Source: a virus
Virus record (IMG/VR): IMGVR_UViG_3300035034_001463
Span: 1-64,000 of that record
DNA: 64,000 bases
Direction: 5' to 3' (one strand)
The translations under genes and the position numbers were made by a program. Under the pieces are notes generated by a model. That model saw only the letters and a list, made by a program, of their open reading frames with translations. It was not told where the DNA came from and searched no databases. Shown here piece after piece: positions 666 to 63,638 of the stretch. The first letter of the stretch is position 1, and every line of letters starts with the position of its first letter.

Positions 666-673
666 TATAAATA
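666..673 (+). promoter_or_regulatory. T4-type late promoter TATAAATA
   Basis: Exact match to the T4 late promoter octamer, 17 nt before the ATG at 691, with a GGGG-type ribosome binding site between them. It probably drives the giant tail-protein operon late in infection. Confidence 0.75.
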
Positions 674-14146: not shown

Positions 14147-14156
14147 AAATGATTAA

Positions 14157-14164
14157 TATAAATA
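14157..14164 (+). promoter_or_regulatory. T4-type late promoter TATAAATA
   Basis: Perfect octamer 19 nt before the ATG at 14184, with a CAGGAG ribosome binding site in the leader. It drives the second W/Y-repeat giant tail gene. Confidence 0.75.
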
Positions 14165-14183
14165 TAGTACGCAGGAGATTTTA

Positions 14184-19271: not shown

Positions 19272-19284
19272 AGGAGAGAATTTA

Positions 19285-19602
19285 ATGGCTACAGGTAGAT
19301 TAGGTGCTTCGGACGTACCTGCAACAACACTAACAACGGTATATACTTGTCCGGCATCTGTTTATACCATAGCAAGCATCAATATTTGCAACAGAGGAGC
19401 TACCGCCGCCGATATAAGAATAGCAGTAGCAACAACAGATACACCAGGTGCTGCTGAATATATTGAATATGACTTAACTATTGCTGTTTCTGGAGTTTTA
19501 GAACGCACCGGTATTGTTTTAGCAACAGGTCAGAGGTTAGTTGTATATTCATCAGCTGCTAGTATTAGTGCCGTTGTTTACGGAATTGAATCAACAGCTT
19601 AA
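19285..19602 (+). CDS. Small virion structural protein
   Basis: A 105-aa protein (MATGRLGASDVPATTLTTVY...) with a strong AAGGAG site. It is Ala/Thr/Ile-rich with regular beta-strand periodicity and no Cys-rich or catalytic motif. Its position straight after a giant fibre gene matches that of the 7391-7720 product, to which its layout is similar (strands, then GQRLVVYSSAASISAVVYGI at the end). I infer a structural protein of the fibre cluster. Confidence 0.5.
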   Translation: MATGRLGASDVPATTLTTVYTCPASVYTIASINICNRGATAADIRIAVATTDTPGAAEYIEYDLTIAVSGVLERTGIVLATGQRLVVYSSAASISAVVYGIESTA

Positions 19603-19611
19603 GGAATTATT

Positions 19612-19899
19612 ATGGGAAGATTTTTAGCACAAGTAGATCCAAAAGCAGAAAAAAAATTAACAGAATCATATTCTGATTCAAACAGTGTTTTTGATGCAGA
19701 CGGGTATCTAACTGCTTACTCGGCTAATGGAGTTGATTATACCTCTATTACATACGACACCGATTTTGGTGTAAATGCAGATTTTAGTGGATCGTTTAAA
19801 AGAGTAACAGGTTGGACTGAAGTAAATGACGGATTAACTCAAGTAATTACAGTAACATATGCTGAATCTGGTCGAGTAGACACAGTAACGGTATCATAA
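19612..19899 (+). CDS. Small conserved tail-cluster protein
   Basis: A 95-aa protein (MGRFLAQVDPKAEKKLTESY...) in tight series with its neighbours (9 nt after one stop, 10 nt before the next start) and with an AAGGA site. The last two thirds are predicted beta strands (TSITYDTDFGVNADFSG, TQVITVTYAESGRVDTVTV). There is no recognisable enzymatic motif. It is probably a virion or fibre-assembly component; the function is unknown. Confidence 0.5.
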   Translation: MGRFLAQVDPKAEKKLTESYSDSNSVFDADGYLTAYSANGVDYTSITYDTDFGVNADFSGSFKRVTGWTEVNDGLTQVITVTYAESGRVDTVTVS

Positions 19900-19909
19900 A
19901 GGAAATTAA

Positions 19910-20887
19910 ATGTCAGATCCATCATTATATAATGCGATACTTGAAGAAAATAAGATATTACAGACCACTATACAGGCAGCAGAAGTAGAAGCACTCAATA
20001 ATGCTTTATGTTTGTGTCCATGGGATACATACGGGTGGCAATTGCTTCCTTTATTAGCTTCCCCAACAGATTGTCTTTGCGTATATGATAACGCAAGCGG
20101 ATATTTAAGATGTGGAGCCTGTTGTGAATGGGTAGTACCATCAGGTGCTTCAAAAATACAATTTCAAATTTGGGGTGCAGGTTCAGGCACAGGAGTTCCT
20201 TGTTGTTGTGGTGGCGCACCATTTGGTTCTAACGGTGCATTTGCAACTGTTATTATTGATGCAGTAGAAGGATGTTCCTATACACTTTGTGCCGGATGTG
20301 CTCTTTGTTGTTATTCTTGTACTACATCCGGATGTAATTGTGCAGACGGATGTCCGTCTTTTGTAACAGGATATAACCTAACTGGATTTTGTGCAGACGG
20401 AGGACAGGGAAATGTTGATTGTCAGATGTTTCTACAAAGTAACGCAACTTGTTCTAGATACCAAGCACCTGGTCGTACTGTATCTGGTCCTTGTACATGT
20501 TATGGATCGCAATATTGCTTCAATGGTTGTGCTACTTGTGGAGAAGTTCCATTTGCTATAGCTCCTGGAAATACATGGCATGGTACTTCTGGTTCTGGTA
20601 CTGTTTGTGGATTTAGCAGCGTGTTTGGAAACGGATATCTTAATACTGGCAACTGTGGATATCATGGATCTGCTCCGGTTATAAGCGTGTGTCATACTTG
20701 TACAACAGAAAGTGCGTGTTGTTGGACATTTACGGATCAAGCATGTTATGGTGGTTGCTTGTGCAATGGATCTTTAACTAGATTATTCCCAGGTGCCGGT
20801 GCTTGGGGAACACATATAACGGGCGGCTCAACAACTCACCAAGGTGACGCAGGTCGTGGTGGAATGGTTCGAGTAACTTGGTGTTAA
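19910..20887 (+). CDS. Cys/Gly-rich adhesin-like tail protein
   Basis: A 325-aa protein with 37 cysteines by my count (about 11%) and very high glycine. Residues 1-33 look helical (YNAILEENKILQTTIQAAEV), perhaps a docking segment. From about residue 68 a module with CCEWVVPSGASKIQFQIWG, then CCCGGAPFGSNG, then CAGCALCCYSC begins; Gly-rich loops follow and the end is GDAGRGGMVRVTW-C. The same plan recurs in the 344-aa protein at 21540. Glycine-rich tips are typical of phage receptor-binding adhesins (T-even gp38-like), but the cysteine density is exceptional and suggests metal-bound or disulfide-locked loops. The receptor is unknown. Confidence 0.6.
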   Translation: MSDPSLYNAILEENKILQTTIQAAEVEALNNALCLCPWDTYGWQLLPLLASPTDCLCVYDNASGYLRCGACCEWVVPSGASKIQFQIWGAGSGTGVPCCCGGAPFGSNGAFATVIIDAVEGCSYTLCAGCALCCYSCTTSGCNCADGCPSFVTGYNLTGFCADGGQGNVDCQMFLQSNATCSRYQAPGRTVSGPCTCYGSQYCFNGCATCGEVPFAIAPGNTWHGTSGSGTVCGFSSVFGNGYLNTGNCGYHGSAPVISVCHTCTTESACCWTFTDQACYGGCLCNGSLTRLFPGAGAWGTHITGGSTTHQGDAGRGGMVRVTWC

Positions 20888-31268: not shown

Positions 31269-31341
31269 AACTTATTTAATCAAACTAAACCTTTAGTGCC
31301 CCTTTATCACATGATATAAGAGTTATTTTTTCTTCCCATCA

Positions 31342-34647: not shown

Positions 34648-34655
34648 GATAAATA
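34648..34655 (+). promoter_or_regulatory. Late promoter GATAAATA (gp19)
   Basis: Late octamer variant just after the gp18 stop, 21 nt before the gp19 ATG with AAGGAG in the leader, allowing extra expression of the abundant tube protein. Confidence 0.7.
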
Positions 34656-34676: not shown

Positions 34677-35312
34677 ATGTCAATCTCATCACTATCAAAG
34701 ATCACTGTTCCATTAGCGAGCGACCAATCAGCGGTCGCTCAGGGACAGCTGATGCCAAAGCTTCAGTATCGCTTTAGGGTAACACTGGAAAACTTTGGAG
34801 TAACAACACCAAGAACTGAACTTACTAAGCAAGTTGCGGATGTAACTCGACCAAACTTGTCGTTTGAAGAAATTACGATCGACGTTTATAACTCACGTAG
34901 TTATTTGGTTGGTAAGCATACTTGGGAACCAATTACTTTAAACTTGCGCGACGACGTCGGGGGAAACGTACAAAAGCTCGTAGGCGAGCAAAATCAGAAA
35001 CAATTCGACTTCCAAGAACAAGCAAGCGCAGCATCCGGTATCGACTATAAGTTTACCACAAGGATTGAAATGCTTGATGGAGGTAATGGGCAATTCCAAC
35101 CAACAGTACTTGAAACATGGGAACTTTACGGTTGTTTAGTACAGAATACTAACTGGAATTCATTAGCATATAATTCAAATGAACCAGTATTGATTACATT
35201 GTCTATTCGTTATGATAATGCAGTACAGACACCACAAGGAACTGGTATTGGTACAAATGTTGGACGTACTGTCAATACACTTATTACAGGTGGTGGTCTT
35301 TCAACAGGCTAA
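34677..35312 (+). CDS. 19: gp19-like tail tube protein
   Basis: A 211-aa protein with the tail-tube pattern of T4-like phages: LQYRFRVTLENFG, then KQVADVTRPNLSFEEITIDV, SRSYLVGKHTWEPITLNLRD, and ETWELYGCLVQNTNWNSL. It would stack as hexameric rings inside the gp18 sheath. It has its own late promoter and is followed by a strong intrinsic terminator, as expected for a highly expressed structural gene. Confidence 0.85.
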   Translation: MSISSLSKITVPLASDQSAVAQGQLMPKLQYRFRVTLENFGVTTPRTELTKQVADVTRPNLSFEEITIDVYNSRSYLVGKHTWEPITLNLRDDVGGNVQKLVGEQNQKQFDFQEQASAASGIDYKFTTRIEMLDGGNGQFQPTVLETWELYGCLVQNTNWNSLAYNSNEPVLITLSIRYDNAVQTPQGTGIGTNVGRTVNTLITGGGLSTG

Positions 35313-35332
35313 TGCTTAAAGATAAGTAGATC

Positions 35333-35361
35333 AAGAGGGAACTTAGGTTCCCTCTTTTTTT
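35333..35361 (+). terminator. Rho-independent terminator after gp19
   Basis: Perfect 10-bp stem AAGAGGGAAC/GTTCCCTCTT with a TTAG loop, followed by an uninterrupted T-run to 35361. It separates the gp18-gp19 transcripts from the gene at 35377. Confidence 0.9.
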
Positions 35362-35364
35362 GAC

Positions 35365-35372
35365 GATAAATA
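35365..35372 (+). promoter_or_regulatory. Late promoter GATAAATA fused to start codon
   Basis: Late octamer 3 bp after the terminator T-run and exactly 4 nt before the ATG at 35377. With T4 spacing the transcript would begin at or next to the A of ATG, so the mRNA would be leaderless. Confidence 0.7.
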
Positions 35373-35376
35373 CAAT

Positions 35377-36501
35377 ATGAGTTTAATAAACGGCTTTCTC
35401 GATAATTTAGTATCAGGTACACTTAATCCTAAAGGTAATCTTGGGGATTTTAAACATTCGTCGTATCTATACAATGCAAACAGTTTTAGGTTAGCACCTA
35501 AAAGTAAATTTCTTTATCAGGTAGTATTTGAACTATCTCCTCAAGCACTGGCACTTAATCCTGTTCTCAGTAATAAACACAGAGAAGAAATTAATATGCT
35601 GGTTAAAGCAGTGGATTTACCAAAATTTCAAGCACAAAGTGAGATGAGAAATCAATACAATCGAAAAAAGAACTTTCAAACGTCTATAACATATGATCCG
35701 GTGCAAATAACACTACATGATGATAATTTTGGTGTTACTACCGCATTAATGGAAGCATACTATCGTTATTATTATAAAGATGGAAATTATGTAGATGAGA
35801 GAACTACTTCATCCTTTGATCCTAGATCTTCATATAAAGGATCAGAAATAAACAGAAAAAAATATGGATTAGACAATGGATCGAGAAGACCATTCTTTCA
35901 CCGTATTACAATATATCAATTAGCAAGACAAACCTATACAGGATTTTCATTAGTTAATCCGCTTATTACTCAATGGGGACATGATTCGTTAGATAATTCA
36001 GATAGTAGTCCTACTGCTAATCAAATGACGGTTGCGTATGAATCTGTGTTCTATTTAAGAGGTAATGTAAAACAAGGAGATCCAGCAGGATTTGCTACTA
36101 CACATTATGATTTGACTCCGTCACCGTTACGAGTTGCAGGAGGAGGCACAAGCACTATTCTCGGCGCCGGCGGTGTTGCCGATGGTGTAGGGTCTATTCT
36201 TGATGACATTTCTTCTGGTAATTTTGGAATAGGAAGCATACTAAAAGGTGTTAATACATTCAATAATGCAAAGAAACTTACATCAGGTGGATTAAGAGAA
36301 GAAGGTTTAAATTTGTTAGGAACTGTTGCCACAGCAGCCGCTCCTGCATTGCTCGGATCAATAAGTAATACTGTGTTTCCAAAATCATTAGGTAATGGTG
36401 GTAAAAATTCAATTACAACTGCAACTGGTGGAAATAGCAATCCGACTGATCCTGCTTATAGAGCAAGGATAGAACAAGCAAGATTTAATAACGGAAGATA
36501 A
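35377..36501 (+). CDS. gp54-like tube initiator/baseplate-tube protein (candidate)
   Basis: 374 aa. The first 220 residues look like a tail-tube fold relative: KFLYQVVFELS, then VKAVDLPKFQAQSEMRNQYN, ITYDPVQITLHDDNFGV, and EAYYRYYYKDGNY. The remainder is Gly/Ser/Asn-rich with a hydrophobic AATAAAPALLGSIS segment. Its location after gp19 and its tube-like plan suggest the tube-initiating baseplate protein (T4 gp54 or gp48 role), but this is inference from pattern only. No ribosome binding site is present. A late promoter sits 4 nt upstream and a terminator before that, so expression probably depends on a leaderless late mRNA. Confidence 0.55.
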   Translation: MSLINGFLDNLVSGTLNPKGNLGDFKHSSYLYNANSFRLAPKSKFLYQVVFELSPQALALNPVLSNKHREEINMLVKAVDLPKFQAQSEMRNQYNRKKNFQTSITYDPVQITLHDDNFGVTTALMEAYYRYYYKDGNYVDERTTSSFDPRSSYKGSEINRKKYGLDNGSRRPFFHRITIYQLARQTYTGFSLVNPLITQWGHDSLDNSDSSPTANQMTVAYESVFYLRGNVKQGDPAGFATTHYDLTPSPLRVAGGGTSTILGAGGVADGVGSILDDISSGNFGIGSILKGVNTFNNAKKLTSGGLREEGLNLLGTVATAAAPALLGSISNTVFPKSLGNGGKNSITTATGGNSNPTDPAYRARIEQARFNNGR

Positions 36502-36502
36502 C

Positions 36503-36871
36503 ATGACAAGTTCAGGAATAAACGAACAAAATAGAGATAGCGCATCAGAAGTAAAGGAATTTTATGATCGTTATTTTGTTAAGAAATTAACATATCCAGC
36601 TAATGAAATTGATGCAGTTTTTGGATTTTTTCGTAAAAGAGGCTTTGAAGAAGAAGCAGCAAGGTCTGTATCCGCCGTATTATTACAACAGGCAAAGTTA
36701 GATGATATTAAAGTTTTTAAATTACTTGATACACTAACCGGACTAAATCAAGTACAATTAAATTCATTAGTAGCAGAGATTTTAAATTACAATAGACCAA
36801 AGTCAAGTACACTTGGTTATCGAGTACAAGACGAAACACAATGGAATGAATCCAGAAATATAATTGTCTAA
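36503..36871 (+). CDS. Conserved hypothetical protein upstream of gp4
   Basis: A 122-aa all-helical acidic protein (SASEVKEFYDRYFVKKLTYP, then DAVFGFFRKRGFEEEAARSV, then LDTLTGLNQVQLNSLVAEIL). The gene begins 1 nt after the preceding stop and shares its own stop with the gp4 ATG (taATG). I associate similar proteins with the structural region of marine T4-like phages, but no function is known to me. A baseplate or head-completion accessory role is possible. Confidence 0.5.
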   Translation: MTSSGINEQNRDSASEVKEFYDRYFVKKLTYPANEIDAVFGFFRKRGFEEEAARSVSAVLLQQAKLDDIKVFKLLDTLTGLNQVQLNSLVAEILNYNRPKSSTLGYRVQDETQWNESRNIIV

Positions 36872-37317
36872 TGTCAAGATACGCATCGGGTAAATATAAT
36901 CTTAAAAATCCAGAAAAATATATAGGTAAATCGGTTCCTACTTACCGATCCGGTTGGGAATTTACATTTATGAAATTCTGTGACGAACATCCTAATGTAG
37001 AACAATGGGCAAGTGAGTCAGTAAGAATACCTTATCGAAACCCACTAAGCGGAAAACAGACAATTTATGTACCTGATTTTCTTGTTTCTTATGTTGACAA
37101 GAATAGCAAAAAACATGTTGAATTGATGGAAGTAAAACCAAAGAATCAATCGTTAAAAGAAAATTTAGGAAAAAGCAAACATAATCAGGCTGCGTGGTTG
37201 GTGAATCAGGCTAAGTGGGAAGCAGCAAAAGCATGGTGTAAACAAAGAGGAATATTCTTTCGAGTAGTAACAGAAGACGACATCTTTGCAAGCACAAAAG
37301 GAAATAGCAGAAGATAA
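36871..37317 (+). CDS. 4: gp4-like head completion protein
   Basis: 148 aa, close to T4 gp4 length (150). It carries PD-(D/E)xK-type nuclease residues: YRSGWEFTFMKFCDEHP with E30, VPDF with D69 at 68-71, and ELMEVKPK with E87/K89. It ends with a basic tail. gp4 (gp50/65) acts at the end of DNA packaging to complete the head before the neck is added; the nuclease-like residues fit trimming at the portal. The start overlaps the previous stop and the next gene follows directly. Confidence 0.75.
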   Translation: MSRYASGKYNLKNPEKYIGKSVPTYRSGWEFTFMKFCDEHPNVEQWASESVRIPYRNPLSGKQTIYVPDFLVSYVDKNSKKHVELMEVKPKNQSLKENLGKSKHNQAAWLVNQAKWEAAKAWCKQRGIFFRVVTEDDIFASTKGNSRR

Positions 37318-37920
37318 ATGGCAGTTATAATAAAAGAACCTTATCATTGCACTTTTATTCATAATCCAAAAACAGGCGGTTCGAGTATTACTGCATGGCT
37401 TAAATCTAACTTTAATTGTAATACTACTAAACGACAAATGGGGGCAAATGTTGAACAGTCTAAAGAAATATTTGGAGATTTAGGATGGACCTTTTCAACT
37501 GTAAGAAATCCTTGGAGATGGGCCGTAAGTTGGTACGAATTTAAATTAACTGAAAATCAAGAAAGAATGGAAAACCTAAATAATCCAAGATATTTTAATT
37601 CACATAAAAAGAAACATAATAAAGAATATCTAATTGAAACACAAAAATTTCTTGAATTAGGTTTTGAAAATTGGTTATTTCAATCTAAACAAGGACCTCA
37701 ATATCAAAATGTAATTCATTGTGATTATATAATGAAACAAGAAACTCTTTCAACGGATTTTAGATTAGTCCAGGATAGGTTAAATTGTTATACCGAATTA
37801 CCAACCTTAGTACAATCTATCAAACTTAAACCATGGCGAGAATATTATACTCCTAAAACCGTTGATTTTATAGCGAAAACCTACATCAAAGACATCAAAG
37901 AATTCAATTATCAATTTTGA
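37318..37920 (+). CDS. Sulfotransferase-like protein
   Basis: A 200-aa protein with both PAPS-binding signatures of the carbohydrate sulfotransferase family: FIHNPKTGGSSITAWL (5'-phosphosulfate loop, PKTGGSS at 17-23) and STVRNPWRWAVSWYEF (3'-phosphate site, RNP-x-x-x-x-x-S-W-Y at 63-73). Such enzymes transfer sulfate from PAPS to hydroxyls of glycans or proteins. It starts directly after the gp4 stop, so the gene probably moved into a late structural operon. Possible substrates are virion glycans, the tail-tip proteins or host surface sugars. I cannot decide between them from the sequence. Confidence 0.7.
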   Translation: MAVIIKEPYHCTFIHNPKTGGSSITAWLKSNFNCNTTKRQMGANVEQSKEIFGDLGWTFSTVRNPWRWAVSWYEFKLTENQERMENLNNPRYFNSHKKKHNKEYLIETQKFLELGFENWLFQSKQGPQYQNVIHCDYIMKQETLSTDFRLVQDRLNCYTELPTLVQSIKLKPWREYYTPKTVDFIAKTYIKDIKEFNYQF

Positions 37921-37923
37921 TAC

Positions 37924-37931
37924 GATAAATA
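37924..37931 (+). promoter_or_regulatory. Late promoter GATAAATA fused to start codon
   Basis: Late octamer followed by exactly 4 nt and the ATG at 37936. It has the same geometry as 35365 and 43509. Confidence 0.65.
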
Positions 37932-37935
37932 CAGT

Positions 37936-38109
37936 ATGGAAATATATTGTAAAAATTGCGGACAATCATCTCATTGCAATGAACTTCTATTAGAGGATGT
38001 AAGAGATTGGCGAGGTGATCGCCTAGGACAAAAAGAAATCTGCTGTTCTTGCCAGTGTGAAAGGTGTACAAATGACCAAAAAATTAGAAGAGATCTTGAA
38101 CCTTCCTGA
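37936..38109 (+). CDS. 57-aa Cys-rich (zinc-ribbon-like) protein
   Basis: A short ORF directly behind a late promoter. It has C-K-N-C at residues 5-8, C14, then CCSCQCERC at about 37-45, a spacing that could bind one or two zinc ions. Residues 16-35 (ELLLEDVRDWRGDRLGQKE) are charged. It overlaps the gp16 start region by 38 nt in another frame and could couple gp16 translation. There is no ribosome binding site, so it would be read from a leaderless mRNA. The function is unknown; a DNA-binding packaging helper is one guess. Confidence 0.5.
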   Translation: MEIYCKNCGQSSHCNELLLEDVRDWRGDRLGQKEICCSCQCERCTNDQKIRRDLEPS

Positions 38110-38584
38110 TTCAAAAGAAATCATTAAAAAAGAAGAAGATGAAAAGATAGCAATTAAGAAGTCTCAAGAAAAACAAGAACGAGATCGTCAAAAGAAAGCC
38201 ATGACAGACATGGAAAAATTTGATAAGATCGCTGCTGCCCTTCCCCACGTAAGAGGATTAGATCAAAAAGCTGACGAAGAACTAGGTGACATTGCTCAGC
38301 GTGCTCTTAATTCTTATGAAGATTTAATGGATCTTGGTATGAACGTAGAAGGACGATATGCAGGTCGTATCTTTGAAGTAGCAGGTAACATGCTCAAAAC
38401 AAGTTTAGATGCTAAGGTTGCAAAGATTGATAAAAAATTAAAAATGGTAGATCTTCAACTTAAAAAAGAAAAAATAGACAATGATCGCGCTGGTAATACA
38501 ACTGATGTTGTAAACGGAGATGGTTATGTAATAACTGATCGTAACAGTTTGATGAAGCAACTACGCGGCAATGCTGATAAATAG
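38072..38584 (+). CDS. 16: gp16-like small terminase subunit
   Basis: 170 aa from ATG 38072 (MTKKLEEILNLPDSKEII), chosen over the GTG at 38057 because GAAAGGTG lies upstream at a fitting distance. Lys/Glu-rich N-terminus, then a central helical core (GDIAQRALNSYEDLMDLGMN, VEGRYAGRIFEVAGNMLKTS, AKVAKIDKKLKMVDLQLKKE) that matches the coiled-coil oligomerisation core of T4-type TerS proteins. TerS forms rings that regulate DNA recognition and ATPase/nuclease activity of gp17, whose split gene lies about 2 kb downstream. Confidence 0.75.
   Translation: MTKKLEEILNLPDSKEIIKKEEDEKIAIKKSQEKQERDRQKKAMTDMEKFDKIAAALPHVRGLDQKADEELGDIAQRALNSYEDLMDLGMNVEGRYAGRIFEVAGNMLKTSLDAKVAKIDKKLKMVDLQLKKEKIDNDRAGNTTDVVNGDGYVITDRNSLMKQLRGNADK
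38576..38583 (+). promoter_or_regulatory. Late promoter GATAAATA
   Basis: Late octamer overlapping the end of gp16, 18 nt before ATG 38602 with an AGGGG ribosome binding site in between. It probably drives the two genes ahead of the terminase. Confidence 0.7.
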
Positions 38585-38601
38585 AACAACAGGGGAATAG
38601 A

Positions 38602-39177
38602 ATGAAAACCTTCTTTGATTACATCGCCGAAAGCGAAAAAGAATATAATTTTAAAATAAGAGTAGCCGGTCCAATGGGAGAAGGCATAACGGATAAGTTA
38701 AAATTGGCATTAACGAAATACGACCTAATTAGTGTTTCGGCTGGAACAAAGTCTCCAATACAAGAATCTCCTTTACATTTCCCACAAATACAAAATTGTG
38801 AAATACACACTCATGATGTAAAGGTAAGATATCCTGCAACAGCAGCGGTATTAAGAAAATATATTGGAGATGTATTAGGAGTTACCGAATCACATATATT
38901 AGTTACTTCACCAACTGAACCTTACGAAGAGCTTATAGCAAATTCTGTAAAGGACAATGACGGAGTATACGAGCCATTGTTGACAAAAACAGAAATGGGA
39001 AATTCGGATCCTAATGCACAACCTAAAGTAGGTACCCATCGAATAATGGATCTATTAAAAGAACTTGAAGTTGCAAGACAAGAACGAACAGAGGGCAACG
39101 CTATTGAAAACACTCCAGTTGGATCAAGCAAAGATATTTCCCCAGAACAAAATAACAAGCCGGTCATAGGAGGCTAA
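38602..39177 (+). CDS. Conserved hypothetical protein of the terminase region
   Basis: 191 aa. N-terminal MKTFFDYIAESEKEYNFKIR reads like a soluble alpha/beta domain: repeated beta strands (FKIRVAGPMG, NCEIHTHDVKVRYPAT) and a helix (AAVLRKYIGDVLG), followed by SHILVTSPTEPYEELI. The last 60 residues are charged and disordered. A similar N-terminal 'MKTFxxxxxES' start is common in proteins around gp16/gp17 of marine T4-like phages. No enzymatic motif. Likely a late virion or packaging-associated protein; the role is unknown. Confidence 0.5.
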   Translation: MKTFFDYIAESEKEYNFKIRVAGPMGEGITDKLKLALTKYDLISVSAGTKSPIQESPLHFPQIQNCEIHTHDVKVRYPATAAVLRKYIGDVLGVTESHILVTSPTEPYEELIANSVKDNDGVYEPLLTKTEMGNSDPNAQPKVGTHRIMDLLKELEVARQERTEGNAIENTPVGSSKDISPEQNNKPVIGG

Positions 39178-39178
39178 A

Positions 39179-40567
39179 ATGGATTTTAATAAAGTATATA
39201 ACAGGATAAAAGAAATTGATCTTAATCTTGATAAAAAGAATAAATTAACTGAAACAGCTTCAGTTAACCTATCATTAACCGGAGAAAACGCATCTGAAGT
39301 TGAACAACTTATGTCAATGTTTAAGAATGCTGGTGTTGCTCCACCACCCGAGATGTCAAAACCACCTGAAATGCCAGACGGTCCTCCAAAACCTTCACTT
39401 TCAGTTACTGGAATAGGCGCCGGTGAACTAGGCGCACCTATTGATGTTGATGCTCCTAATGGAATGGCAAAAGCAATGGATCGTGCAGCAGACGAACACG
39501 AAGCAATGATGGACAACGGAGTTGATGAGCGGGAAACAGATCCAGCGCAAGATGATTCGGATAGATGGGAATCAATGCAATCGTGTATCGAAGTTGTTGA
39601 CAAAGATTGGCAGAAAAAGAAATACTCATACGATGAAGCACAATCGATGGCAGCTTTAGTTGAAAAAGCAACTGGTCAAGATGCTGTTTCAGTTTTACAT
39701 TTCTTAGAAAATGAAGGTAGAGTAGAAGAAAAATCAGAAGATGTTGAAGAATGGGATAATTCACCAGACGAAGATTATCAAGATAATGATTACATGCAAC
39801 ATGATCTAGCAGGCGGTGCTGGACCCAAGAGTAAGATGTATTCGCCTGCAGCCAACGGAGACAATCCAATGTCTGTTGGTGAAGAATTAACAAAGAAATT
39901 AGAGGATCTAAGTGTTATGGATAATAAAAGAACAGAGAGTATACGCGATCAGTTGTATGCAGCTCTAAGCGAAAAGATTGTAAAAGAAACCAAATGCAAT
40001 TGCAATTGCGGTAAGTCACCATGTGAAAAGTGTGGAAAGACACATCATAATGTAAAAGAAGGCGCTTACAAAGATGGTGAAAAAGACAAAATCGAAAAGA
40101 AGGTAAAGTCCGGAGAATTCAAAAAAGGTAAAACTAAAAAGGCAGTTGGATCTTCAGGTAAGAAGCCAGGACAGAACCATTCGGGACATTTAACAAAAGA
40201 CGGACAAGGTAAAGTAAGGAAGTTTGGTGAAACAAAGAAACCAAACTTAGAAAATACAAGAGACACAAAGGGTCCAGACAAAAAGACCAAAGAAGCGTTT
40301 TCAGGAACAGGAAAGACTTCTCGTCCAGGCGATCAATTAAAGGGAACCCACAAAGCTGGTAAGAGTTCACCTACTACAGGTCCTGAACAGAAGAATGTTA
40401 CTAAGGGTAAATTAGTAGGTGATAGTAAGATTAACAATAAGAAAGCTATGTCCGAAAGCAAAGAAGTAAATGATATTATTGCTTTAGCTACTCACAAGGT
40501 TGGCAATCAAAGAGTTGCTTCTAGTACTAAATCAATGATGGATCTTAAGAAATTAGCAGGACTATAA
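39179..40567 (+). CDS. Low-complexity Lys/Glu-rich protein upstream of terminase
   Basis: 462 aa. N-terminal ETASVNLSLTGENASEVEQL precedes a Pro-rich linker (PPPEMSKPPEMPDGPPKP). A region rich in Asp/Glu follows (to about 255). Then comes a Cys cluster CNCNCGKSPCEKCGKTHH (about 277-294) with zinc-binding spacing, and a basic, Lys/Gly-rich C-terminus, ending in a helix (NDIIALATHKVG, STKSMMDLKKLAGL). Disordered and charged proteins of this kind lie beside the terminase in marine T4-like phages; they may be internal head or DNA-associated proteins. I do not know the function. Confidence 0.5.
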   Translation: MDFNKVYNRIKEIDLNLDKKNKLTETASVNLSLTGENASEVEQLMSMFKNAGVAPPPEMSKPPEMPDGPPKPSLSVTGIGAGELGAPIDVDAPNGMAKAMDRAADEHEAMMDNGVDERETDPAQDDSDRWESMQSCIEVVDKDWQKKKYSYDEAQSMAALVEKATGQDAVSVLHFLENEGRVEEKSEDVEEWDNSPDEDYQDNDYMQHDLAGGAGPKSKMYSPAANGDNPMSVGEELTKKLEDLSVMDNKRTESIRDQLYAALSEKIVKETKCNCNCGKSPCEKCGKTHHNVKEGAYKDGEKDKIEKKVKSGEFKKGKTKKAVGSSGKKPGQNHSGHLTKDGQGKVRKFGETKKPNLENTRDTKGPDKKTKEAFSGTGKTSRPGDQLKGTHKAGKSSPTTGPEQKNVTKGKLVGDSKINNKKAMSESKEVNDIIALATHKVGNQRVASSTKSMMDLKKLAGL

Positions 40568-40568
40568 A

Positions 40569-41207
40569 ATGAGTAGAAATGTAGACGGAGTTCTTGTTAA
40601 GAAGGCAAACCAACAGGAAAAATATACACAAGACCAAATTGATGATTTAGTTAGGTGTATGGATCCAGAAGATGGACATCATTATTTTTTAAGGAACTTC
40701 TTCTACATACAGCATTCTGTCAAAGGAGAATTGCTGTTTGACCCATTTTCTTACCAAACAAGATTATTAGATAGTTATCACAAATATCGATTTAATATTA
40801 ATATGTTACCTCGACAAACAGGAAAAACTACCTGTGCTGCAGGATATTTGCTTTGGTATGCAATGTTTAATCCTAATCAAACTATTCTAATTGCGGCTCA
40901 TAAATATACCGGTGCATTAGAAATTATGCAACGAATACGGTATGCTTATGAAATGTGTCCTGATCATGTACGTGCAGGACAAACAGAATATAATAAAGGA
41001 AGTATTGTTTTTGAAAATGGTTCAAGAATTGTCGCTCAAACTACAACCAATAATACCGGTCGTGGTATGGCTATATCATTATTATATTGCTTGGACGGCG
41101 ACACTACTACGGTCCAAATTCGAAATAAATTGACAAAAATAGAAGAAACTGTTACACTAAAAGATCTATACGTAAGATTAACAGGAGCCACAAAGGTCCT
41201 AGTTTAA
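40569..41207 (+). CDS. 17: Large terminase N-terminal part with N-intein (split TerL)
   Basis: 212 aa. Residues 1-173 are the N-terminal ATPase half of gp17: FFYIQHSVKGELLFDPFSYQ (adenine-binding side), NMLPRQTGKTTCAAGYLLW with the Walker A PRQTGKTT at 81-88, then NNTGRGMAISLLY. At residue 174 (TGC at 41088) an N-intein begins, CLDGDTTTVQIRNKL, and the ORF stops after 39 intein residues (end VTLKDLYVRLTGATKVLV). The second half of TerL is in the ORF at 42125. The N-extein breaks off right at the hydrophobic strand of the Walker B motif, so it should be inactive alone. Confidence 0.9.
   Translation: MSRNVDGVLVKKANQQEKYTQDQIDDLVRCMDPEDGHHYFLRNFFYIQHSVKGELLFDPFSYQTRLLDSYHKYRFNINMLPRQTGKTTCAAGYLLWYAMFNPNQTILIAAHKYTGALEIMQRIRYAYEMCPDHVRAGQTEYNKGSIVFENGSRIVAQTTTNNTGRGMAISLLYCLDGDTTTVQIRNKLTKIEETVTLKDLYVRLTGATKVLV
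41088..41204 (+). other. N-intein (splicing block A) of split TerL intein
   Basis: 39 residues starting CLDGDT, the block-A signature with nucleophilic Cys1, and ending VTLKDLYVRLTGATKVLV before a stop. The length and the DLY-x-RL ending resemble the very short N-fragment of AceL-TerL-type atypically split inteins. Block B is not in this fragment. Confidence 0.85.
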
Positions 41208-41222
41208 CAGAAAGCTTGTAAT

Positions 41223-42158
41223 ATGCAAATAAAAATTAAAAAGTTCATAGAACGTAATCAAAAAAGAAATCAAAAACTATATCAATCTGAAATGAAAGAG
41301 CGTATTGATTATATTGTGTGTCCGGTTAGTAATCAACGATTGAGTATGATTAAATCATCTTATATCGTCAACGTATTAGAAATGACAGTTGAAGAATACG
41401 ACCGGTTGTATCCGGGTATTAGAGGTGTTAGCGAAGCAAGAAAACGAAATATTAAAATGGGTCTTAAAAAGATTGACGCAGAAACTGGCTTGTCTAAATA
41501 CGAAGTTGGCCAAGTCAAAGCGAGAAAAATCTTAAAGCAAAAAGATTCTGATGGTCTAAGTGGGTATGATAAAAAAGGTAAAAAAACTCGTGCAACACAT
41601 ATGGCAAATGTTGATGAATTTGGTAGGAATGGCTACCGCCGGCAAGCTGATGCCAGATTAACTACAATATTGCCCAACGGTTTAACCATCGAACAAAATG
41701 CACACAAAAAACAGAAACAAACCTTAATTAAAAACAATAAAACAGGCACCGGTGGTGCTAGCAAACTTTCTAAAAGAGTTTTGAAACCGATTATTGATTG
41801 GTTAGATCAAAACGAAATCAAATATTATTTTGATAAAAACGAATATGGGATTAAAGATACAGCGACTGAAAATTATTATTTTTGGGATTTAACTATTCCG
41901 AAATTTAAGATGGCAATAGAATATCAATCAACGGCCTGGCATGCAGATCCAACTCTTTCTGAATCAGAATGGAAGGATTGGAAACCACCTAGAGGTAAGA
42001 AGAAATCTGCAGATGAAGTATTAACATATGACTATAATAAAGCCCGTTCGTTATTTAAAAATAGACAATTTTTAACATATTACATCTGGCAATCAACGCA
42101 AGACCTAATCGTAAAGGAAATTATATGTTTGTTGAAAACAATGAATATGAAATATTAA
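41223..42158 (+). CDS. Free-standing Vsr-like (EDxHD-type) homing endonuclease
   Basis: 311 aa between the two terminase halves. The N-terminus is basic, with a degenerate zinc-finger-like region YIVCPVSNQRLSM and T-V-E-E-Y-D-R-L-Y-P-G, then linker motifs GYDKKGKKTRATHM and NGYRRQADARL, then QNAHKKQKQTLIKNN. The C-terminal catalytic part reads YYFWDLTIPKFKMAIEYQST, then A-W-H-A-D-P, then LTYDYNKARSLFKNRQFLTY: D, E and H residues spaced as in the Vsr-related family known from marine fractured genes with split inteins. It probably cuts uninterrupted terL to spread the element. Its last 34 nt overlap the start of the C-intein ORF. Confidence 0.8.
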   Translation: MQIKIKKFIERNQKRNQKLYQSEMKERIDYIVCPVSNQRLSMIKSSYIVNVLEMTVEEYDRLYPGIRGVSEARKRNIKMGLKKIDAETGLSKYEVGQVKARKILKQKDSDGLSGYDKKGKKTRATHMANVDEFGRNGYRRQADARLTTILPNGLTIEQNAHKKQKQTLIKNNKTGTGGASKLSKRVLKPIIDWLDQNEIKYYFDKNEYGIKDTATENYYFWDLTIPKFKMAIEYQSTAWHADPTLSESEWKDWKPPRGKKKSADEVLTYDYNKARSLFKNRQFLTYYIWQSTQDLIVKEIICLLKTMNMKY

Positions 42159-42448
42159 CTCCAACAGGATGGAAAGATTTCCGAGGAGTATCGTGTGCTG
42201 GTGAAAAAATTACATACAATATTGTTACAGATAATAATAGTATTAATGCAACATTGGGGCATTATTTTTTTATTAACAATGAAAGAAGAAAAGTAGCCGA
42301 TTTGTTGGTTGGTGATATTATTGAAACAAATAATACCCATGAAAAAATTATATCAATTACAGAAAACCCGTCGTCGGTAGTTTATGATATAATTGAAGTA
42401 GATGAAGACAACCATAAGTTTATAGCTAATAATATTACAACTAAAAAT
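42125..42448 (+). other. C-intein (blocks B-G) of split TerL intein
   Basis: 108 residues, MFVENNEYEILTPTGWKDFR at the start and ITTKN at the end. It is like the C-fragment of AceL-TerL, which also begins with MF and carries block B. The penultimate residue is Lys rather than the usual His, and the +1 residue is Cys. The TLGH motif provides the block B histidine. Confidence 0.85.
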
Positions 42449-43510
42449 TGTGACGAGTTTGCGTTTGTTCCACCTAACATTGCTATAGAATTTTGGACTT
42501 CTATATCACCTACTCTAGCAACTGGTGGACGTGCTATTATAACATCTACACCAAACTCAGACGAAGATACTTTTGCTACTATCTGGAAAGAAGCAGAAAA
42601 TAAATTTGACGAATATGGTAATGAAGGCACAGTGGGAGAAAATGGATTTCATTCTTTTACTGTTGCATGGAACGAACATCCGGACCGTGATGAGGAATGG
42701 AAAAAAGCAGAAACAGGTCGTATAGGTGAAGAAAGATTCCGGCGTGAATATGGGTGTGAATTCCTTGTATTTGACGAAACTCTTATATCTTCTATTAAAT
42801 TAGCAAACATGCCCGGGCGAGAACCATTACTTAACATGGGACAAACACGCTGGTATAAAAAACCAAATAAGAAATTTAGTTATGTTGTTGCACTTGATCC
42901 TTCTATGGGAACCGGCGGTAACGATGCTGCTATACAAGTATTTGAAGTTCCTACATATGAACAAATAGGAGAATGGAAACATAACTCTACAGCTATTCCT
43001 GGACAAATACGAGTACTAAGAGAAATATGTAATTATCTTGAAGAAATGTGCGGCTCCTCGTCTAACATTTATTGGAGTGTTGAAAACAATACAATAGGAG
43101 AAGCTGCTCTTATTGTTATTGAAGATTTTGGTGAAGAAACTATTCCTGGATTGTTTGTATCAGAACCTATGAGAAAAGGACATATACGCAAATTTCGAAA
43201 AGGATTTAATACCACGCACGGAACTAAAATTTCAGCTTGTGCTAAGTTAAAAACTCTAATCGAAAACGATAAATTTAAAATTAATTCTAAACCTCTTATT
43301 TCTCAATTAAAGGATTTTGTTGCTCATTCTACAACCTACAAAGGAAAGAACGATCGACCAGATGATTTAGTATCTGCTATTCTTCTTACAATAAGAGTAT
43401 TAACCGTAATGAAAGATTGGGACCCTGCTGTATATCAAACATTTGTTCAAGCCGACCCCGACGATTATTACGATGTAAGACCAATGCCGATGTTTATAAC
43501 AATGGGTTGA
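42125..43510 (+). CDS. 17: C-intein plus large terminase C-terminal part (split TerL)
   Basis: 461 aa, ATG preceded by AAAGGA. Residues 1-108 are a C-intein: block B-like ATLGH (T-x-x-H) near 42-46, block F-like VYDIIEVDEDNHKFIANNIT, terminal Asn108. The C-extein starts with Cys109 (TGT at 42449) as CDEFAFVPPNIAIEF, which supplies the Walker B DE, the coupling motif IITSTPNSDE, and the RNase-H-like nuclease: VVALDPSMGTGGNDA (Asp), YWSVENNTIG (Glu), NDRPDDLVSAI (Asp). Joining to the 173-aa N-extein gives a 526-aa terminase reading SLLY-CDEF. It is probably active only after trans-splicing. Confidence 0.9.
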   Translation: MFVENNEYEILTPTGWKDFRGVSCAGEKITYNIVTDNNSINATLGHYFFINNERRKVADLLVGDIIETNNTHEKIISITENPSSVVYDIIEVDEDNHKFIANNITTKNCDEFAFVPPNIAIEFWTSISPTLATGGRAIITSTPNSDEDTFATIWKEAENKFDEYGNEGTVGENGFHSFTVAWNEHPDRDEEWKKAETGRIGEERFRREYGCEFLVFDETLISSIKLANMPGREPLLNMGQTRWYKKPNKKFSYVVALDPSMGTGGNDAAIQVFEVPTYEQIGEWKHNSTAIPGQIRVLREICNYLEEMCGSSSNIYWSVENNTIGEAALIVIEDFGEETIPGLFVSEPMRKGHIRKFRKGFNTTHGTKISACAKLKTLIENDKFKINSKPLISQLKDFVAHSTTYKGKNDRPDDLVSAILLTIRVLTVMKDWDPAVYQTFVQADPDDYYDVRPMPMFITMG

Positions 43511-43516
43511 TAAATA
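43509..43516 (+). promoter_or_regulatory. Late promoter GATAAATA fused to start codon
   Basis: Late octamer overlapping the TerL-C stop codon and 4 nt before ATG 43521 (spacer CGAT). Same geometry as 35365 and 37924; no ribosome binding site. Confidence 0.65.
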
Positions 43517-43520
43517 CGAT

Positions 43521-45401
43521 ATGAGAGATTTAGACACAATAGGCGAAGAACTTTTTAACAAAATACGAGGAAGATTTCCGTCGGTATCAATAGGTACCGC
43601 TGAAGGACAAGTAACAAATGAACCTTCAGAGGCAAGATTTTTTGATTTTAGTTACGAAAATAATTCAGACTCGCAAGGCAAAGTGTCAGTTAGTTTAAGT
43701 GAAGAAGAAGGAGTAGTTATACTCTTTAATAGTGATTCTATAGCAATAGAAAATGGAATAGCTAAATCACAATGGTATGGATTTCTTAAAGAACTTAGAA
43801 AATTTGCTCGAAAGAGAGCTCTTAATTTTGAAACAAGAGATATAGAGCGTGACAATTTACAAAAGAGAGATTACTCGTATCTCGCTACGAGTCCAGGAGA
43901 TGATAAAATGACAGAATCAAAGATGTACGGAACATCAAAGGTAAGTTTTCAAGATATTGGGAATGCTAGATTAAGACTTCAGCACACCCAGCGCGTCAAT
44001 AATGATATACCCGCCGGTAGAACTCAACACATAGAGGGTATTTTTATTGAGAGCGACAACGGAGAAAGATTTAAATATCCGTTTAAACACATATCTGGCG
44101 CAAGGGCAATGGCAAGACATGTATCAGAAGGCGGAGTACCACATGACGAATTTGGTAAACATATAACTGGATTATCTGAAGAATTGGCCAACCTCAAGAA
44201 GTTTAAAACATACATGGGTCGATCATCTGTTATGGCAGAAGGACTCGGACAATACATGGATGTTGTAAAAGAACGAGTTATAACTGTTAAGAATCGTATC
44301 AATAAACTACAAAAAGAAAACTTTTATAAAGAAGAAATTGAAACTTTTGAAAGTTCAGAATTAACTGAAGTACCAGAAGATGTAAAACAAGATTGGATCA
44401 AGCAACTTACGATTGAACAATTTAACGAAGAACTTAAAGACGTATTTCCATATATCTATAAGTTGATAGGAGAATCTGGACCAAAAGAATTAAATGCTGA
44501 TGATTTAGTTGGAGAAGACTCACCAAAAACATCTTCATATACACGCGCCGGACAAAAAGAATGGAATGTAACATATGATGAGGGTAAAAAGAAGAATATA
44601 AAAACATCATTCCTTACACAACCAAACATGAATATAAGTCAAGCTGCAGAGTTATTTCGTAAAAAGAATCGTTTAGCAGGTAATGTGCGTTTAAAGTATG
44701 TTGGTATTGCAGAAAATGACATCTACATGAATAGTTTTGAAAAAACAATGAATGAGATAGGAAATTATCCAGACGACTTTGATCAAGGAGCATTTGATCG
44801 TTCGCAGGGAACACCTGAACCTGGAGAAGAACGAGCACAAGAAGAAGTCATGGATGAAATTAAAAATCTTATCCAAAATTATGATTATTCTCGTTATGAT
44901 GATTTAACTGATCCTGATGACATCAAAGGATATATGAGCGATGCAGCAAGTGATTTAATACATACTGCAATCGAAAATGTAGGTGCAGAAGGATTTTATG
45001 ATGGAATTATGGAATATTTTACAACCGAATACTTAGATCAAATAAAAGATCAATTGATTAAAAATCATCCAAATAATGCACAAGAATGTCCGGATGGAGA
45101 AGAAGAGGAAGAAAAACCTCAAACACCATTGCCTGAATATATTCTTTCATTATTTGATCGAGACAACGGACGATTCCCTAAAGGCGAAACTGCGGTACTT
45201 ACTGCAATTGAAAAAGATTATGGAAACGAATTTATTAATCCTGCTAAAAATTTCATTGAAAGAATACAGGAAATTTATAGAGAGCACACGGGAATAACTG
45301 TTGATTCTGACATGGAGCCTCTTGCAGACGAAGAACAACAAAGACCATATGAGGATATAACTCGTATGAAAACTCTTGCAGGTCTTACTTTACTCCGTTA
45401 A
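43521..45401 (+). CDS. Conserved hypothetical protein, possible virion component
   Basis: 626 aa. The N-terminal 125 residues look like an alpha/beta domain (KVSVSLSEEEGVVILFNSDS, YGFLKELRKFARKRALNFET). A middle domain follows (TQHIEGIFIESDNGERFKYP, FKHISGARAMARHVSEGGVP) with basic helices to about 280. The C-terminal 340 residues are helical and very acidic. I associate such proteins with the terminase-gp32 interval of cyanophage-type myoviruses, with unknown role. A late promoter without a ribosome binding site lies directly upstream. No nuclease, kinase or membrane motif is visible. Confidence 0.5.
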   Translation: MRDLDTIGEELFNKIRGRFPSVSIGTAEGQVTNEPSEARFFDFSYENNSDSQGKVSVSLSEEEGVVILFNSDSIAIENGIAKSQWYGFLKELRKFARKRALNFETRDIERDNLQKRDYSYLATSPGDDKMTESKMYGTSKVSFQDIGNARLRLQHTQRVNNDIPAGRTQHIEGIFIESDNGERFKYPFKHISGARAMARHVSEGGVPHDEFGKHITGLSEELANLKKFKTYMGRSSVMAEGLGQYMDVVKERVITVKNRINKLQKENFYKEEIETFESSELTEVPEDVKQDWIKQLTIEQFNEELKDVFPYIYKLIGESGPKELNADDLVGEDSPKTSSYTRAGQKEWNVTYDEGKKKNIKTSFLTQPNMNISQAAELFRKKNRLAGNVRLKYVGIAENDIYMNSFEKTMNEIGNYPDDFDQGAFDRSQGTPEPGEERAQEEVMDEIKNLIQNYDYSRYDDLTDPDDIKGYMSDAASDLIHTAIENVGAEGFYDGIMEYFTTEYLDQIKDQLIKNHPNNAQECPDGEEEEEKPQTPLPEYILSLFDRDNGRFPKGETAVLTAIEKDYGNEFINPAKNFIERIQEIYREHTGITVDSDMEPLADEEQQRPYEDITRMKTLAGLTLLR

Positions 45402-52040: not shown

Positions 52041-52048
52041 TATTTATC
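52041..52048 (-). promoter_or_regulatory. Late promoter GATAAATA (minus strand)
   Basis: Late octamer reading leftwards, 3 nt before ATG 52037 of the minus-strand glycosyltransferase. Pairs with a plus-strand octamer at 52064 to form a compact divergent late promoter region. Confidence 0.6.
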
Positions 52049-52063
52049 AGTTTAAAGTGCATA

Positions 52064-52071
52064 TATAAATA
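52064..52071 (+). promoter_or_regulatory. Late promoter TATAAATA
   Basis: Perfect late octamer, 23 nt before ATG 52095. Upstream of a run of overlapping glycan genes reaching 56212. Confidence 0.7.
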
Positions 52072-62450: not shown

Positions 62451-63129
62451 CAAACCTTTTCGCTGTGAATATTGTGGAAATGGATTTGTAAAAGAAAAGA
62501 CACTATTTGCGCATTTGTGTGAAAAGAAACGGCGTGCACTTGCAAAAGATGAAAAACATGTAAGGCTTGGTTATTTTACCTACAAAAGATTTTTTAAATT
62601 AAGTGTAGGACAATCAAAAACAGAAAAAACTTACGAAGAGTTTTCTTCTTCTCCTTATTATAATGCTTTTGTAAAATTTGGTTCGTATCTTTCAAATGTA
62701 AAACCATTGCATCCTGAAAAATATATTGATTATATAGTAACAAGTGGTGTTAAGTTAGATAATTGGTGTAGTGATAAATTATACGAAGAATACGCTCTTA
62801 ATTATATTCTTAAAGAAGATTGTACTGTTGCCTTAGAAAGATCGATTAATACTATGGTAGAGTGGGCAAAAGAGAATAATAGCAGTTATCAACATTATTT
62901 TTTATATGCATCTTCAAACAGAATTGTACGTGATATAAGAGATGGAAAAGTTTCTCCGTGGTTAATGTTAAATTGTAAAAGCGGAAAAGACATGTTAAAT
63001 AAATTAAACGATGAACAACTCGATATGATCTACAACGTTGTTGATCCAAAGAAATGGACAATTAGATTTGGTAGAGAACCAGAAAATGTTCAGTTAGTAA
63101 AAGAAATAGTAAAGGATGCAAAATTATGA
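62356..63129 (+). CDS. Zinc-finger-containing conserved phage protein
   Basis: Up to 257 aa. A C2H2-like finger lies near residues 36-56 (CEYCGNGFVKEKTLFAHLCE), then KRRALAKDEKHVRLGYFTYK, FSSSPYYNAFVKFGSYLSNV and LEDC-type helical stretches. The first 21 codons overlap the previous gene in another frame and may not be translated: TTG 62419 is an alternative start. Its stop overlaps the peptide deformylase start (attATGaa). Likely a nucleic-acid-binding protein. Confidence 0.6.
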   Translation: MRLNSLLEYLQKQKSESWLKTLVTKQKISQSDKPFRCEYCGNGFVKEKTLFAHLCEKKRRALAKDEKHVRLGYFTYKRFFKLSVGQSKTEKTYEEFSSSPYYNAFVKFGSYLSNVKPLHPEKYIDYIVTSGVKLDNWCSDKLYEEYALNYILKEDCTVALERSINTMVEWAKENNSSYQHYFLYASSNRIVRDIRDGKVSPWLMLNCKSGKDMLNKLNDEQLDMIYNVVDPKKWTIRFGREPENVQLVKEIVKDAKL

Positions 63130-63638
63130 ATATAAATGATCTTCATTTAATCAAATATCCTGCAGAGATACTCGATCAGCAAGTAGCAACGGTTGATATT
63201 GAAAATCCGGGGTTTGACGTTAAAGAATTAAAAGAAAGAATGACTGCTGTTATGGTTGACAACGGTGGAATTGGACTTTCAGCTAATCAAGTAGGACTTG
63301 ATGCTCAAGTCTTTGTATTTGGATCCGATAAGAAAAATTTAACTATGGCAATTAATCCAATGGTTCTACAACACACTATCGAATCAACACTTGAGTATGA
63401 AGGGTGTCTTAGTTTTCCTGGAATTTTTGTTAAGGTACCACGACCAAAAGAAATACTAGTTGAATTCTATAATGAAAATCTCGAAAAGCAAACTGTAAAG
63501 ATTGAAGGATATTCTGCCCGTGTGTTTCTACATGAGTATGATCATTTACAGGGTATTGTTTTTAAAGATAGAGTTAGCAAAATGAAATGGGATCGTGCTA
63601 AGACAAAACTTGAAAAAATAAGAAAGAAAATATCATGA
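63126..63638 (+). CDS. def: Peptide deformylase
   Basis: 170 aa with all three metal-site motifs: GIGLSANQ (48-55), EGCLSFPG (92-99) and HEYDHLQG (136-143), close in length to bacterial PDF (168). It removes the formyl group from the N-terminal Met of new proteins, using Fe(II) or similar bound by the Cys and two His. PDFs are frequent auxiliary genes in marine T4-like phages and may boost translation or target a specific host protein. The start overlaps the previous stop. Confidence 0.95.
   Translation: MNINDLHLIKYPAEILDQQVATVDIENPGFDVKELKERMTAVMVDNGGIGLSANQVGLDAQVFVFGSDKKNLTMAINPMVLQHTIESTLEYEGCLSFPGIFVKVPRPKEILVEFYNENLEKQTVKIEGYSARVFLHEYDHLQGIVFKDRVSKMKWDRAKTKLEKIRKKIS

Follow-up and report, generated by a model that had tools for sequence, protein, structure and literature searches.

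Predicted leaderless late mRNAs from T4-type promoter octamers placed next to start codons in a group of T4-like phages

Three genes in the window, the 64,000 nucleotides that make up bases 1-64000 of the 86,270-base IMG/VR virus record IMGVR_UViG_3300035034_001463, begin with an ATG exactly four nucleotides after the octamer GATAAATA. Octamers in this position are very probably late promoters of the T4 type that give rise to leaderless mRNAs. The evidence consists of the architecture of the sites, their enrichment in related records, their conservation among orthologues, the near-exclusive use of ATG and, in one gene family, the link with a terminator; judged by the sequence comparisons, the arrangement looks like a conserved design and not chance. 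The comparisons support the leaderless interpretation offered by the initial annotation. Its three identical sites proved exact on recheck in sequence, spacer and coordinates, no Shine-Dalgarno (SD) word stands directly upstream of any of the three ATGs, and a fourth case on the minus strand has the two distances that had been noted for it (Table 1).

Octamer spacing in the window and in related records

Distances (d) are given in nucleotides from octamer to ATG, so that d=4 corresponds to N4 and d=5 to N5. The octamer GATAAATA occurs in the window at the frequency expected by chance (8 sites against 7.55). At three of these eight sites an open reading frame (ORF) of 50 codons or more starts with its ATG at N4; among the 1645 sites formed by the 167 other permutations of the octamer letters there are four such cases (nominal p 8e-7); irrespective of an ORF, an ATG is found at N4 in 3/8 against 27/1645 sites (p 2e-4). 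In all 86,270 bases of the record, three matches to the N4 pattern stand against none to the reversed control.

If the pattern is functional, the initial annotation argued, it should be enriched in relatives. Strong enrichment over controls is indeed observed, chiefly as N5: GATAAATA-N5-ATG is present in 19 of 20 long records, hand-picked from the 80 family A loci described below and including several near-duplicates, while the reversed control gave 0. N4 is the minority form, relatives mostly using N5. All records of the window group are fragments. The spacing statistics come from 11 related records (664 kb); record G012 was left out because its identical sites mark it, by eye, as a near-duplicate of G001, and only a 12-record distance count still includes it.

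Octamer-to-ATG distances are bimodal, with a sharp peak at 5 nt, few cases between, and then leadered starts at 14-44 nt. Among 136 octamers followed by an ORF of at least 50 codons, 43 fall at d=3-6, nine at d=7-13 (seven of them at d=8), 83 at d=14-44 and one at d=0. SD words accompany none of the 43 starts of the first class, none of the nine of the second and 67 of the 83 of the third. After removal of identical 12-residue N-termini, 29 cases at d=5 and eight at d=4 are left among 114. An ATG opening a frame of at least 60 codons lies at d=5 of 33/172 ATAAATA sites, against 25/7265 for 20 other permutations. The variant boxes [CGT]TAAATA are not just noise: under the 60-codon requirement they show 20/515 against 64/15348 permuted sites at d=5, 8/515 against 96/15348 at d=4, and 2/515 against 145/15348 at d=6-7. 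The exact string GATAAATATTAGTATGGC was found in at least 120 IMG/VR stretches, with none for the string one base longer; 79 new loci carrying it comprise 59 members of family A and 20 with other proteins or unmatched, one of these with four codons read.

A/T-rich genomes might place an ATG near ATAAATA by accident. The chance-level count of the octamer in the window is compatible with this, as is T4, in which the loose pattern ATAAATAN{3,8}ATG stays at control level (5 matches against 8 in the reversed control). Moreover, of 52 gene families preceded by octamers, 18 include members at d=4-5, seven of them two or more and 11 only one, and some of the 11 single cases may be accidental. The permuted-octamer and spacing controls refute accident for the group as a whole, and conservation across diverged orthologues also speaks against it, so that chance is an extremely improbable explanation; the refutation does not cover the single case at 37936, a cysteine-rich ORF for which we found no relative and no Pfam match, and which is the weakest of the window cases. 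At least eight relatives carry an octamer 24-27 nt upstream of the small terminase gene.

Predicted transcription start and start codon

The leadered promoters provide an estimate of the start of transcription. Among the 83 of them, the fifth base after the octamer is T in 53 and the sixth is A in 54 and G in 19, a purine in 73/83. The T4 late box is numbered with its first base at -13, which puts +1 at the sixth base after the box (PMC2988020); our sequence-based estimate agrees with that numbering. With the predicted +1 at base 6, the RNA of an N5-ATG gene would have the A of AUG as its first base. For N4 sites, the A of ATG occupies base 5 and follows T in 8/8 cases, and the simplest reading would be a one-base shift to a pyrimidine-purine start. 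The base preceding the ATG is T or C in 58/59. Where frames at d=5 stay open for at least 100 codons, across the 11 records and the cultured phages HTVC008M, Mosig and Melnitz, the codon is ATG in 47 cases, GTG and TTG in none, and ATA, ATT and CTG in one each; such near-exclusive use of ATG is what a requirement for a 5'-terminal AUG would produce.

Our prediction from sequence covers the activity of the promoter, the precise +1 and translation without a leader, and runs as follows. A phage gp55-like sigma factor on the host RNA polymerase would read the octamers. The first transcribed base would be number six after the octamer, or number five where this is the A of an ATG preceded by a pyrimidine. 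For one group of late genes +1 would coincide with the A of the start codon; the mRNA, beginning with 5'-AUG, would then be engaged through its 5'-terminal AUG and not by SD pairing. The same genomes would also have a second group of genes that use this promoter with a leader of at least 14 nt, mostly with an SD.

The proximity of the octamer to the ATG could also mean that, as part of a longer mRNA, it acts as an A/U-rich enhancer or site of ribosome binding and is no promoter at all. The octamer is A/T-rich and occupies the SD position, as such an element would. Yet the same octamer, with the same downstream base preferences, also stands 14-44 nt before starts that mostly have an SD, members of family A lie directly behind a terminator, and the octamer agrees with the late box of T4, the predicted +1 falling where expected. 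We regard this alternative as very unlikely.

Late promoters of T4 (TATAAATA, read with gp55, gp33 and gp45) have in common with the predicted ones of the window group the octamer core and, to judge by base composition, probably its position relative to the start. The octamers in the group are TATAAATA-like, with the ATAAATA core preceded by G, T, A or C. They differ from T4 in that the first base is mostly G and many lie 4-5 nt from an ATG, whereas the shortest octamer distance to an ATG opening 60 codons in T4 is 12 nt, with 0/30 at 4-5 nt. A gp55-type sigma factor of 306 aa is encoded in G001 and G012 (phrog_12791, E 4.7e-80 and 5.8e-80). The search for the gp45 family matched 0/20 records and no control either.

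The textbook leaderless mRNA of a phage is that of lambda cI transcribed from PRM. The predicted 5'-terminal AUG and the absence of an SD are common to that transcript and the genes described here; in lambda a single regulatory gene is concerned, whereas the design here recurs among structural late genes with promoters of a T4-like class.

Family A and its terminator

The gene at 35377 (family A, tail tube by PHROG) lies directly behind a strong terminator, as the initial annotation had reported; for the stretch 35318-35364 the folding energy is -17.6 kcal/mol (z -3.36). That leaderless translation is the only route to expression fits this gene, which follows the terminator, and does not extend to 43521 and 37936, for which it had never been claimed.

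In IMG/VR the best 80 of 92 family A loci were taken, and 38 of them are distinct in the promoter region. Thirty-two of the 38 have octamer-N5-ATG; five have the octamer 17 nt from the start together with an SD and without a terminator; one (L033) lacks the exact octamer. Our own terminator scan finds a terminator directly upstream in 31/32 leaderless loci against 0/5 SD-bearing ones (nominal Fisher p 1.4e-5). The SD-bearing version begins at the identical residue (MANILNGFLDN), a finding in favour of the start codon assigned to leaderless members, and the N-terminus of the 35377 protein aligns with those of 10 homologues, one of them SD-bearing.

A TRCGTACTTT-like stretch is conserved about 15 nt upstream of the octamer in most family A loci (L004-L083), SD-bearing and leaderless alike. 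As a general -35 element, which a T4-type late promoter would lack, it was rejected, since TA[CT]G[CT]ACTT has 33 sites against 36.8 in shuffles and is not enriched genome-wide.

Conservation among orthologues

Orthologues of families A-H were located by tblastn in 12 records, and the counts that follow are given without G012. The PHROG names are tail tube for A, virion structural protein for B, C and G, and terminase large subunit for D; E is of unknown function and H is unmatched. The box stands at N4 or N5 in 10/11 records for family A and in 9/9 for family B, once through the variant box GGTAAATA, so that all eight other records in which family B was found retain it. These members came from fetched records; the pattern scan confirmed no relatives of the ORF at 43521. 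Family C starts with ATG at N5 or N8 in 9/11 records, and at d=8 its transcript would carry a predicted 3-nt leader. Family D has the box at N4 or N5 in 7/10 records and at N8 in one more, mostly as variant boxes and behind a hairpin. The arrangement is kept in 3/3 records for E, 1/1 for F and 3/4 for G, and TAAATA stands at N4 or N5 in 11/11 records for H, with the full ATAAATA in only two. Variant cores such as GGTAAATA also occur in families D, E, G and H.

The letters of the spacer vary, and the box and the 4-5 nt spacing stay constant. Downstream of the start, differences are of the coding type: 119, 61 and 229 at codon positions 1, 2 and 3 of family B (codons 7-20, 392 codon pairs), and 88, 28 and 236 in family C (codons 2-20, 532 codon pairs). 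Family D gives no usable count because one member has an extra residue.

Points against leaderless initiation

Several observations weigh against the interpretation of these genes as leaderless. The absence of SD words at d=3-6 is in part a necessity, the octamer itself taking up the place of an SD. A strict application of the T4 rule puts +1 of N4 sites on the T of ATG, and N4 is what the window uses, with N5 placement at 0/8 of its GATAAATA sites. The gp55 gene was found in only 2/20 fragmentary records, both near-duplicates and neither the window's own. Exceptions occur within the families: A is SD-leadered in G001, where another gene precedes it, follows a terminator-like stretch and is itself at N4; C is SD-leadered in G001 and G000, starting with TTG and apparently ATT, respectively; D lacks the box in G000 and G001; and G is SD-leadered in G004. 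Related records are not independent, so that all p-values are only nominal. The signal in the cultured phage Melnitz is weak (3/24 at d=5, p 7e-4).

Read-through followed by re-initiation is possible at 43521 and 37936, because the gene ahead of each stops within the octamer or directly in front of it. In this alternative the octamers are late promoters, and read-through mRNA serves as the main template, translated by re-initiation behind the upstream stop. The stop of a long upstream frame does end 1-5 bases into the octamer in 12 of 41 cases at d=4-5, as at 43509; in 16 of the 41, by contrast, no same-strand frame of 100 codons ends within 80 nt, and family A sits behind terminators. Nor does re-initiation require the strict 5-nt spacing or the absence of GTG and TTG. 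As the main route it seems improbable, and leaderless mRNAs from T4-type late promoters are the reading we retain.

Occurrence in cultured phages

In cultured phages we counted octamers followed within 45 nt by an ATG that opens a frame of at least 60 codons, and recorded the share at d=5. This share is 9/18 in HTVC008M and 6/30 in Mosig, and no case was found in T4 (0/30), Syn9 (0/18) or Atu_ph07 (0/46, in 400 of 490 kb). The myophages HTVC008M, Mosig and Melnitz of SAR11 and OM43 bacteria share the N5-ATG excess with the window group, strongly in the first two and weakly in Melnitz. PA5oct (2/40, nominal p 0.04) and P-SSM2 (1/35, p 0.07) are not convincingly above controls and were not counted as users. 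In the one stretch of HTVC008M that was inspected, all three d=5 sites coincide with the starts of annotated genes (tape measure, DNA end protector and tube cap).

The loose pattern, counted against its reversed control, gives 17 against 4 in HTVC008M, 13 against 3 in Mosig and 8 against 5 in Melnitz; elsewhere the counts are 14 against 17 (PA5oct), 24 against 14 (Atu_ph07), 5 against 5 (Syn9) and 6 against 9 (P-SSM2). It alone was used for CBB (5 against 8), Phosso (4 against 2) and Caulobacter phage Cr30 (1 against 0). Ribosomal protein S21 is carried by HTVC008M and Mosig; a search of 18 records of the window group did not find it, and as a helper of the group's own it was dropped.

Tentatively, the fusion of promoter and start codon might be a shared, possibly host-linked strategy of T4-like phages of streamlined marine bacteria such as SAR11, one that packs terminator, promoter and start into a single module and allows SD-independent initiation for a class of structural proteins late in infection. 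The parts are of known kinds, and their systematic combination appears to be new: no report of promoter-fused leaderless late genes was found in titles and abstracts, a search that covered mostly openly available papers, so that an earlier report is possible. For pelagimyophages, one published effort at predicting late promoters was reported as unsuccessful (PMC7029224), and promoters this close to the ATG might be one reason. If the proposal is true, it would mean systematic use of leaderless mRNAs for phage structural genes, a simple rule by which marine T4-like phages could be scanned for late promoters and start codons, and a ready system in which to study 5'-terminal AUG initiation in SAR11-type bacteria.

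Features of the window and genomic setting

The coordinates of the sites, of leadered promoters that serve as an internal contrast, and of the genes concerned are collected in Table 1.

Table 1. Promoter-like octamers and associated features in the window
Feature	Position	Strand	Remarks
Octamer TATAAATA	666-673	+	17-nt leader with AAGGGG, before gene 691; internal contrast
Octamer TATAAATA	14157-14164	+	19-nt leader with CAGGAG, before gene 14184; internal contrast
Family H ORF, 113 aa	30927-31268	-	Predicted leaderless, from orthologue comparison
Variant box GATTAAATA	31273-31281	-	Spacer AGTT (N4), ATG 31268; fifth candidate in the window
Octamer	34648-34655	+	21-nt leader with AAGGAG, before tail tube gene 34677; internal contrast
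Intrinsic terminator, 10-bp stem and U-run	35333-35356	+	After tail tube gene 34677-35312
Octamer GATAAATA	35365-35372	+	Spacer CAAT (N4), ATG 35377; in relatives this octamer stands mostly at N5
Family A, second tail tube-like protein, 374 aa	35377-36501	+	Predicted leaderless; PHROG tail tube
Octamer GATAAATA	37924-37931	+	Spacer CAGT (N4), ATG 37936
Cysteine-rich ORF, 57 codons	37936-38109	+	Predicted leaderless; overlaps inferred small terminase start (ATG 38072)
Octamer	38576-38583	+	18-nt leader with AGGGG, before gene 38602; internal contrast
Octamer GATAAATA	43509-43516	+	Spacer CGAT (N4), ATG 43521; overlaps stop codon of upstream terminase gene
Family B, virion structural protein, 626 aa	43521-45401	+	Predicted leaderless; PHROG
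ORF, 238 aa	51321-52037	-	Second ATG (52034) would give a 1-nt leader
Octamer GATAAATA	52041-52048	-	N3 to ATG 52037, N6 to ATG 52034
Divergent octamer TATAAATA	52064-52071	+	Back to back with 52041-52048

No family was found for the 238-aa ORF. The divergent octamers next to it are 15 bp apart (52041-52071), and in some family C relatives such pairs are separated by about 5 bp (e.g. G003 43798-43804, L091); at either distance simultaneous occupation of both is hardly possible. The family C orthologue of the window (ORF listed as 29407-28325) seemingly starts upstream, at about 29479 on the minus strand, with the SD GGAG and an ATT codon, in contrast to orthologues with a predicted leaderless ATG start.

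The sites lie in a region of T4-like structural genes, those for the tail sheath, two tail tube proteins, head closure, and the small and large terminase. Among the best 8 of 2581 records, the tail sheath has its nearest cultured relatives in Sinorhizobium phage Phosso and Agrobacterium phage Atu_ph07, at about 42%, and in PA5oct-type phages, at 48.6% over 63% of the protein. With the 35377 protein, the nearest are PA5oct-type phages, at 28.5%. No match at the DNA level to window bases 30000-52000 was found among phage records.

The large terminase gene at 40569-43510 looks like a split-intein gene, to judge from its reading frames. It is divided into an N-terminal part with the start of an intein, a separate 311-aa ORF, which may be a homing endonuclease, and the end of the intein with the C-terminal part; the last ORF matches the engineered intein CatC at 6-110, and T4 gp17 as well. 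A sulfotransferase-like gene lies at 37318-37920, between the head closure and small terminase genes, and a peptide deformylase gene at 63126-63638. In the related locus L120, GC content rises from about 0.29 to about 0.46 around 10001-20000 (record 74001-84000), beyond a run of small minus-strand genes, and this record may be chimeric or contain a foreign module.

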